DNA from: Paenibacillus daejeonensis DSM 15491
Lineage (GTDB): Bacteria > Bacillota > Bacilli > Paenibacillales > Paenibacillaceae
DNA length: 64,000 bases
NCBI RefSeq assembly: GCF_000378385.1
Contig: NZ_KB899668.1
Location: 174,370-238,369, forward strand
Direction: 5' to 3'
Shown: piece after piece, positions 7,027 to 57,405 of the stretch
Numbering within the stretch: position 1 is the first letter of the stretch
Layout: every line of letters begins with the position of its first letter
Made by a program: the position numbers and the translations under genes
Notes under the pieces: generated by a model
Database searches by the model: none
Seen by the model: the letters and a program-made list of their open reading frames with translations, nothing else
Told to the model about the DNA's origin: nothing

Positions 7027-7039
7027 GCGTTAGAGGTTG

Positions 7040-7264
7040 TTCAAAACGTCCGCTTTTGATCACGAAGTAGTGCAGAGAAGCGGATTCGACATCGAATCTT
7101 GAAGGCAATCAGACTAAGCGTATGCTTACGAAGCTAGTTTCCTTCGGAAACTCTTAGGTGCTCACGTAGGTATGCTTCCGAGGTCGTTTTCTACGAAAAC
7201 GTGTACCGCTCCTCATTTCTTTTTGCCCGCAACCTTCTCGGTGCTGAAAAGCGACCATTTTGAA
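7040..7264. repeat. Dispersed structured repeat, family R1, copy A
   Basis: Ends are an imperfect inverted repeat: TTCAAAACGTCCGCTTTT (7040-7057) against AAAAGCGACCATTTTGAA (7247-7264), 15 of 18 positions pairing. Inside are GATTCG-acat-CGAATC, TAAGC-gtat-GCTTA and GTTTCC-ttc-GGAAAC hairpins and the conserved tail CAACCTTCTCGGTGCTGAAAA in part. This copy carries extra sequence with a CGTTTT-ctac-GAAAACG hairpin. Similarity to copy C continues left to about 7028 (GCGTTAGAGG). No coding frame is seen. Confidence 0.9.
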
Positions 7265-7290
7265 CTTGCATTTAAAGGAGTGAATAATAC

Positions 7291-27391: not shown

Positions 27392-27590
27392 GGGTCGATT
27401 TTGATCACGAAGTATCTCGGAGAAGTTGATTCGGCGTCGAATCTTGAGCTCAGATGCAACTAAGCGTATGCTTACGAAGCTAGTTTCCTTCGGAAACTCT
27501 TAGGTGCTCACGTAGGTTTGCCTACGCTCCGCTCCTCAGTTGCCTCTTCACTCAACCTTCTCGGTGCTGAAAATCGACTTTTTGGAATTT
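27391..27590. repeat. Dispersed structured repeat, family R1, copy B
   Basis: Inner ends pair perfectly: GTCGATTTT (27394-27402) with AAAATCGAC (27570-27578). Hairpins: GATTCG-gcgt-CGAATC, TAAGC-gtat-GCTTA, GTTTCC-ttc-GGAAAC and CGTAGG-tttg-CCTACG. The conserved ATCACGAAGTA and CAACCTTCTCGGTGCTGAAA blocks are present. The left outer end is shorter than in copies A and C and meets the argF stop. Confidence 0.9.
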
Positions 27591-27618
27591 GAAGTAAGTA
27601 ATTAAGACTCAAAATCAG

Positions 27619-27786
27619 ACTGCCCTCAAAACGGCCGGAGAGGCACGGAATCGAATCTGGAGAAGCGAAGCGTTCGCCTTTGTCCCCGGATTTCAACCGC
27701 TAAAGCGGTTAATAAATCAAGAAATCCGGGGACAACAGCGATCGTAAGATCGATCCGTGACTGTAGGCCTTCTTTTTGAGGGCAGT
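27619..27786. repeat. Structured 168 bp element before argG (family R2)
   Basis: Perfect terminal inverted repeat ACTGCCCTCAAAA (27619-27631) / TTTTGAGGGCAGT (27774-27786), then GGCC / GGCC. Inside: GCGAA-gcg-TTCGC, a perfect 14-bp stem TGTCCCCGGATTTC (27681-27694) / GAAATCCGGGGACA (27721-27734) enclosing AACCGC-taaa-GCGGTT, and CGATC-gtaa-GATCG. It ends 20 bases before argG, so it would form most of the argG leader. It may be a mobile repeat or a structured RNA; it does not match a riboswitch I know. Confidence 0.85.
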
Positions 27787-27806
27787 AAAGGAGCGAATGG
27801 ATACGC

Positions 27807-47419: not shown

Positions 47420-47452
47420 AGGATCAGTTGATAAAAGTGTAACACCGATTCG

Positions 47453-47499
47453 CATATTGAAAAGGGTTAACATTTTACGATGATACCTTTTTCAATATG
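47453..47499 (+). promoter_or_regulatory. Long hairpin in the cold shock mRNA leader
   Basis: CATATTGAAAAGGG (47453-47466) pairs with CCTTTTTCAATATG (47486-47499) almost completely around a 19-base AT-rich loop. It lies between the likely promoter and the ribosome binding site, where temperature-dependent folding could matter. Confidence 0.6.
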
Positions 47500-47559
47500 T
47501 GAATTTTTGTTGTATCGGCAAAAAATGAACATGTTAATAAACATTTGGAGGTAATAACT

Positions 47560-47760
47560 ATGCAACAAGGTACAGTTAAATGGTTCAACGCAGAGAAAGG
47601 CTTCGGTTTCATCGAAGTTGAAGGCGGAAGCGACGTATTCGTACACTTCTCCGCAATCACTGGCGAAGGTTTCAAAACCCTCGACGAAGGCCAACGCGTT
47701 GAGTTCAACGTAGTTCAAGGCAACCGTGGTCCACAAGCTGAGAACGTTGTAAAACTGTAA
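47560..47760 (+). CDS. Cold shock protein (CspA/CspB family), second copy
   Basis: A 66-residue cold shock domain, [20 protein letters not shown] at the start, with RNP1 KGFGFIE and RNP2 VFVHFSAI intact. It differs from the copy at 14741 at many positions but has the same length and fold. The frame reaches back to TTG 47545, yet the GGAGG at 47547-47551 shows that ATG 47560 is the start. Long structured leader upstream, terminator downstream. It acts as an RNA chaperone in the cytoplasm. Confidence 0.95.
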
Positions 47761-47774
47761 TAATTGCTCAGACA

Positions 47775-47805
47775 AAGCTCCTGACCCTTTGGGTTAGGGG
47801 CTTTT
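47775..47805 (+). terminator. Terminator of the second cold shock gene
   Basis: AAGCTCCTGACCC and GGGTTAGGGGCTT pair across TTT, then TTTC. The following 47806-47960 has no recognisable feature. Confidence 0.8.
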
Positions 47806-47960
47806 CTTTGCGTTCAGAGGATTTCTTCATCCAATTAACCGGATTGAACTGCGCGCGATCAGGGTAGAGTTTAATACAAACCGGATGAGGGACATTTCCG
47901 TCCTACAGGAAGGGGCACCAATATTATGTCCGGTGTCCAGCATTAGGTGTCAAGCGGTCA

Positions 47961-57051: not shown

Positions 57052-57089
57052 ACATGTCCCGCCGCGGGATTGAAATGCGTTAGAGGAAA

Positions 57090-57294
57090 TTCAAAAAGCC
57101 CGCTTTTAATCACGAAGTAGCTCGGAGAATTGATTTCGACATCGAATCTTGAATGCAGTCGTAACTCTAAGCCTATGCTTACGAAGCCAGTTTCCACCGG
57201 AAACTCTTAGGTGCTCACGTAGCTTAGGCTACGCTCCGCTCCTCAGTTCCTCCTGCCTCCAACCTTCTCGGTGCTGAAAACCGACCTTTTTGAA
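57090..57294. repeat. Dispersed structured repeat, family R1, copy C
   Basis: Ends TTCAAAAAGCCCGCTTTT (57090-57107) and AAAACCGACCTTTTTGAA (57277-57294) pair at 15 of 18 positions. Internal hairpins: TAAGC-ctat-GCTTA, GTTTCC-acc-GGAAAC and CGTAGC-ttag-GCTACG, the last with both arms changed relative to copy B. It lies between the divergent isomerase and U32 genes. Confidence 0.92.
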
Positions 57295-57405
57295 TAAACA
57301 CATTTTATAATGACTCCTATCATCTGCTTGTAGATAACCGAACGCAGGTTTGTTAAAATGAAAGGAAGATTACAGGTCAATACATTGGCCTGTCTGGAGG
57401 TAAAA

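Follow-up and report, generated by a model that had tools for sequence, protein, structure and literature searches.

A widespread MITE-like repeat family with a conserved RNA-like core in Paenibacillus daejeonensis and its relatives

The window, i.e. the whole stretch of 64,000 nucleotides of Paenibacillus daejeonensis DSM 15491 analyzed here, carries three intergenic copies of a repeated element, designated A, B and C. All three had been proposed in the initial annotation and were recovered upon reading and aligning the sequence. The initial annotation saw no ORF in them, and none of at least 100 amino acids is located within the three copies. According to Pfam, copy A is flanked by flgK and a flagellin-type gene, copy B by the genes for ornithine carbamoyltransferase (argF) and argininosuccinate synthase (argG), and copy C by a xylose-isomerase-like TIM-barrel gene and a U32 peptidase gene. 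The limits previously given for copies A and C (7040-7264 and 57090-57294) were slightly short and are extended below. Copy B has no left outer repeat, its core beginning at 27393, two bases past the argF stop codon. The features are:

57083..57302, RNA strand minus: copy C, complete element, its outer repeats degenerate (from sequence, BLAST, covariance model and fold)
57083..57098, plus strand: copy C, left outer repeat (family consensus GAGGTTGTTCAAAAAG)
57098..57287, minus strand: copy C, structured core (model R1, 138 bits; contig positions 231467-231656)
57132..57148, minus strand: copy C, side hairpin P3
57167..57210, minus strand: copy C, optional double-hairpin module, missing in compact copies
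57218..57233, minus strand: copy C, apical hairpin P6 (CGTAGC/GCTACG), co-varying across the family
57288..57302, plus strand: copy C, right outer repeat (family consensus CTTTTTGAACACGCA)
27393..27580, minus strand: copy B, structured core (model R1, 150 bits); right outer repeat degenerate
7033..7270, minus strand: copy A, whole element, between flgK and the flagellin-type (FlgL-like) gene
7048..7257, minus strand: copy A, structured core with two additional hairpin modules (model R1, 114 bits)

The blocks ATCACGAAGTA, CTCTTAGGTGCTCACGTAG and CAACCTTCTCGGTGCTGAAA are shared by all three copies. A fourth block described as common to all, CTCCGCTCCTCA, is present in B and C only; copy A shows GTACCGCTCCTCA at this position since it bears an additional hairpin. 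The paired differences had been read correctly: CGTAGG/CCTACG in copy B corresponds to CGTAGC/GCTACG in copy C, and the inner terminal repeat is GTCGATTTT/AAAATCGAC in copy B and CGCTTTT/AAAAGCG in copy A. A second structured intergenic repeat (GGCACGGAATCGAATCTGGAGAAGCGAAGCG..GGGGACAACAGCGATCGGAAGATCGATCCGTG) is located at 27617-27788 between copy B and argG. It recurs in at least six others of the genome's 49 20-kb stretches, an eighth match looking spurious, and its GAGAAGCGAAGCG is similar to the core motif GAGGAGCGGAGCG of the element. Rfam furthermore assigns positions 47424-47806 of the window to the cspA thermoregulator RNA (86.5 bits).

Three copies is the correct number for the window but not for the genome (7.46 Mb, 36 contigs), where BLAST with copy C pointed to dozens of places. 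A covariance model of 150 positions and 48 pairs (R1), built from 47 copies of this genome, gave 56 matches at E ≤ 0.001 when 150 of 1741 first-look candidates were scored; seven of the 56 are weak or partial (<80 bits). Compact copies have a core of about 150 nt, while other copies carry one or two additional hairpin modules of about 23-24 nt and 37-40 nt, one of which is found in both orientations (L032 and L038 versus the remaining copies). Read on the reverse strand, the outer repeat TGCGTGTTCAAAAAG is followed by the closing stem P1. Next comes CAGCACCGAGAAG, whose pairing with CUUCGUGAUC spans a bulge of 3 nt and an invariant mismatch loop; stem P2 has internal loops. Stem P4 is long and irregular (16 positions) and the apical arm P6 reads GAGGAGCGGAGCGUAG..CUACGUGAGCACC (also written GAGGAGCGGAGCGUAG..CUACGUGAGCACCGG). 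The side hairpin P3, GAUUCGAUGUCGAAUC, is followed by the outer repeat CTTTTTGAACAACCTC.

The outer repeats are terminal inverted repeats with GAGGTTGTTCAAAAAG at left ends and CTTTTTGAACACGCA at right ends. Among the 47 own copies 18 had both repeats in register, 10 had one and 19 had none; the test was strict and allowed no gaps, so that some copies shifted by one base are misclassified. Insertion is accompanied by a target duplication of 5-6 bp at AT-rich sites with the consensus CTNNNA. When the flanking 6-mers of 191 copies were compared, 573 of 1146 letters matched where 472 were expected (z 7.6, 500 permutations); the 6-mers were identical in 23 copies and differed by at most one mismatch in 42. 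This signal is partly inflated by tandem arrays, and is also present in single copies (e.g. L002, L045, L047, L070, L080, L095). In Paenibacillus montaniterrae (L134, L135, L151, L163, L174) two to five copies of the element follow one another in tandem arrays. Genome G637 contains fold-back forms of 37-41 bp consisting of the ends only, where they make up 11 of 20 stretches picked partly for short spacing, and similar forms are present in the P. daejeonensis genome (L043, L045). In a group of copies from G637 and G857 (L278, L282, L283, L285-L293) unrelated long hairpins, e.g. CCCGGCACTTAA..TTAAGTGCCGGG, replace apical or inner parts, the fold-back form always being retained. A screen for empty sites listed 205 pairs, mostly internal gaps between copies, and among those listed left one diverged candidate (L138 filled, own-genome L346 empty). 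At locus L197 (1319-1496) of a metagenome-assembled genome (MAG) the element interrupts an HNH-domain gene which is uninterrupted at that spot in L235. With its terminal repeats, target duplications and dozens of copies dispersed over intergenic regions, the element is a non-autonomous miniature mobile DNA element of the MITE-like kind.

An autonomous element with the same ends was not found in the P. daejeonensis genome. By eye, the ORFs adjoining three truncated left ends were ordinary genes, and the end-pattern matches listed for nine genomes had short spacings only. Three loose end pairs in the fetched loci enclosed no ORF or transporter genes and no transposase, and all 46 transposase loci (PF01609/PF13751) of 8 genomes had other ends. 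Among ORF clusters near the copies in Bacillota, no nuclease or transposase gene was seen to recur. Of the ORFs close to copies, ten recurrent or syntenic ones, including eight that represent clusters, were scanned and turned out to be transporters, regulators, an oxidoreductase, kinases, one ORF without match and the HNH-domain gene of MAG locus L235. The cluster of the latter is mostly read-through of the element, since the MAG element is open for about 45 codons in one frame. No transposase with these ends was found in these searches. The element is probably moved in trans; the presumed parent element may have been lost or may belong to a different family.

We searched for the element in other genomes using the covariance model. 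Within the family Paenibacillaceae 175 of 394 genomes from 12 of 19 genera matched, and within the order 161 of 392 sampled genomes from 20 of 49 genera and three families, two of which lie beyond Paenibacillaceae. Since six candidates per genome were scored in the family and order searches and two in the phylum search, copy numbers per genome are floors. In the genus of the source genome presence is patchy: match counts were 56, 18 and 1 in three genomes and zero in the other four. A pattern search for relatives yielded at least 114 stretches, of which 61 were taken forward, and 43 loci were taken from the genus and family searches. Named carriers are Paenibacillus, Cohnella, Brevibacillus fortis, Terrihalobacillus insolitus (Bacillaceae) and the MAGs JALHDH01 and JAAZKF01, the latter labeled Burkholderiales. 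The core motif was present in 9 of 14 phylum loci; seven of these come from five genomes, each of a different further family of the phylum, in which a related core sits inside similar outer repeats. In the MAG labeled Burkholderiales, a label taken from the database record and possibly mistaken, the same core motif lies between different ends (CCTGAATCCGCCGCCTGGCGTG), so core and ends are separable. We rejected cargo of phages or plasmids as the identity of the element. It was absent from phage records, and the three plasmid records containing it are from Paenibacillus, with none for the Bacillaceae and MAG versions. No IMG/VR contig had the exact core pattern; one of 21 contigs with the end motif (2848043816) holds a composite copy of 323 bp that contains another insertion (L301, 2296-2619), and viral contigs are therefore not free of the element.

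Paired changes like those noticed between the window copies occur across the family. In the 47 own copies 88.7% of cells pair, compared to 34.9-49.3% with the 3' partners slid by 1-3 columns, and both sides have changed in 22 of 48 pairs. Double-change cells numbered 147 versus 52 (sd 5) with shuffled partners, a value reached in none of 500 shuffles. As part of this covariation is common to one subfamily, a second analysis used a 109-sequence tree covering many genomes (177 sequences at the start, 117 after length filtering and removal of named divergent loci, 109 without near-identical sequences). Branches on which both partners switch between Watson-Crick pairs were counted as the mean of 10 reconstructions: we obtained 91.7 double changes for the structure, compared to 0-6.2 when partners were slid and 2-9 when they were re-dealt, and 29 of 46 pairs showed at least one. 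In this larger alignment covariation thus goes beyond phylogenetic expectation. An all-pairs test patterned on R-scape, though not R-scape itself, used 100 alignments simulated on the tree as null; among all column pairs only two reached E ≤ 0.05, both within the structure. Deep clades raise the null scores in this test.

Compensation could be mimicked by mutation specific to palindromes or by recombination between copies. Own copies that lack outer repeats (n = 19) keep their pairs about as well as those with both (n = 18), with 8.79 versus 8.33 of 10 pairs in P1 (p 0.065) and 44.1 versus 43.3 of 48 pairs in total (p 0.067). At the phosphoglucose-isomerase locus of two species and at purH (four loci, two of them seemingly identical), differences between copies largely preserve the stems as judged by eye among the alignments listed. 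Both observations favor selection on resident copies, although recombination between copies could imitate this as well.

The initial annotation had read the copies on the forward strand; the better fold is on the reverse strand. Folding z-scores of the reverse strand were -2.64, -5.54 and -3.05 for A, B and C, while the forward strand gave -1.05 for C and -1.61 for the compact copy L018, and the reverse strand yielded the more stable fold in 44 of 47 own copies. An RNA under selection tolerates G-U pairs on its own strand but not A-C. The structure derived from the forward strand contained 100 A-C versus 35 G-U cells in the 47 own copies, the opposite of what is expected for a forward-strand RNA. 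On the 109-sequence tree, reverse-strand changes to G-U (74.9) outnumbered those to A-C (41.6) with no steady excess in controls; this excess, like that in the two other lineages below, is partly built in because structures were predicted on the reverse strand. Alignment folding energies were -83.5 (reverse) versus -68.9 (forward) for the 109-sequence set. Relatives from other families, a set of 15 clostridial-type rows including two from Paenibacillaceae (L251, L260) and chimeric ones (e.g. L275, L277, L291), gave -68.6 versus -62.9 with 35 G-U and 11 A-C. The MAG set reached -171.8 versus -139.6 with 61 G-U and 2 A-C cells, which are mostly fixed as its eight rows hardly vary (one pair with double changes).

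The family matches no RNA family in Rfam, and the initial annotation had likewise known no fitting class. Rfam gave no match on the copies when the whole window was searched at gathering scores and none on the element when five loci of the same genome were searched with E values up to 5; four sub-threshold matches in five loci of relatives did not overlap an element. A known RNA family was therefore rejected as identity, and no known IS fragment was recognized. Topic and sequence-block searches of the open-licence literature returned no description of the element, which may be in print elsewhere. The element represents a widely distributed MITE-like family whose conserved core resembles an RNA and which is not described in the literature reached by these searches. 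Bacterial MITEs are short, carry terminal repeats and direct repeats at the target, lie in intergenic regions and give foldable transcripts (PMC10969869), all of which applies here. Different from them are a core fold conserved with compensation across the order, a core motif also found with other ends and the lack of a parent IS among our findings. The mobile/repeat sequence candidates (MRSC) likewise combine a structured motif with many copies per genome, inconsistent gene orientation and strong covariation (PMC11109978). Their featured example and the sole motif compared, MRSC-65-2, forms one long stem containing UYCCGG repeats, unlike our element, and the name Paenibacillus is absent from the main text (PMC11109978). 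Structured RNAs borne by transposons include the omega RNAs of IscB/TnpB and the group I introns of IStrons (PMC4227781). The element resembles these in holding a structured RNA inside a DNA transposon and differs in having no Rfam match, no nuclease or transposase gene seen to recur among the ORF clusters next to the Bacillota copies, and terminal repeats with target duplication. The bcr1 repeat of the Bacillus cereus group measures 147-167 bp (PMC2267715). Likened by description and not by sequence, bcr1 and the element are both mobile, foldable intergenic repeats of about 150 bp. The target duplication of bcr1 is TTTAT.

The initial annotation had offered two alternatives, selection on an RNA fold and a hairpin-ended mobile repeat; the ends and target duplications on one side and the covariation on the 109-sequence tree on the other indicate that both hold together. 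A role for the host was assessed from the orientation of 49 copies. Relative to the flanking genes, which vary between copies, it was same/same in 14, opposite/opposite in 19 and mixed in 16 cases (simple ORF caller), and a cis role is thus unsupported by gene orientation. With regard to replication, whose direction was judged for 20-kb stretches from GC skew and the coding majority, 22 versus 27 copies were counted, and 19 versus 26 where both indicators agree; no strand bias was seen in this test of limited power. This balance counts against a role in cis on mRNAs as well as against single-stranded DNA transposition. We consider it improbable that the copies are a host-adopted terminator, stability or processing element of the mRNAs containing them. 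Such a role would account for the 12 of 49 copies beginning within three bases from the stop codon of a gene reading into their left side, for the copies that separate argF from argG and flgK from its neighbor, and for persistence at the orthologous phosphoglucose-isomerase and purH loci, whereas balanced orientation, differing flanking genes and patchy presence contradict it. By eye, a copy lies close to an ileS-like gene in four genomes (L054, L072, L107, L211). Elements derived from REP or IS200-IS605 show no target duplication and prefer one replication strand. An element of this kind, whose folded strand would be the substrate of an HUH transposase, would fit the better fold on one strand and the predominance of hairpins; with target duplications present and no strand preference in a test of limited power, we regard this origin as very improbable.

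The remaining readings differ in what they make of the core. It could belong to a pure DNA parasite, hairpins of a MITE being kept complementary by cruciform-related template switching or gene conversion and the RNA being functionless. The fold-back forms of 37-41 bp keeping the two ends only, the hairpins grafted onto arm tips, the patchy presence in the genus (3 of 7 genomes) and the lack of orientation bias to genes would all agree with this, yet a symmetric DNA process would not predict strand asymmetry, and unpaired core motifs are conserved across distant lineages; we therefore think it rather unlikely. Our favored reading, which we hold to be probable, is a MITE-like family, likely mobilized in trans, that carries a selected structured RNA. 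The outer repeats, as double-stranded DNA, would be the target of a transposase supplied in trans, and the core would be kept by selection on a folded reverse-strand transcript, including that of resident copies. The weakest step is that the RNA might serve the element itself, in its movement or by rendering insertions tolerable, given the balanced orientation to host genes and the occurrence of the core motif within unrelated ends as well. Counting against the favored reading, the outer repeat would be too short to accommodate the element's own promoter. A more far-reaching version, which is possible though doubtful, sees an unclassified RNA class inside miniature DNA transposons, with the core GAGGAGCGGAGCGUA..UACGUGAGCACC and a branched fold being kept or captured by elements with unrelated ends in Paenibacillaceae, Bacillaceae, other Bacillota and the bin labeled Burkholderiales. 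Its RNA would act for the element, as guide or co-factor of a transposase or by self-processing that hides insertions, like omega RNAs without the neighboring gene.

Small mobile repeats are commonly regarded as remnants of decaying transposons. In this family the central part of the element keeps a specific fold throughout an order and, judged by the core motif, beyond it. If the RNA works, it becomes possible to ask what purpose an RNA has for an element without genes, and hundreds of natural variants are available for testing. If it does nothing, the family shows how covariation of the RNA type can be mimicked by palindromic DNA, a point that would be relevant to every covariation-based search for new RNAs.
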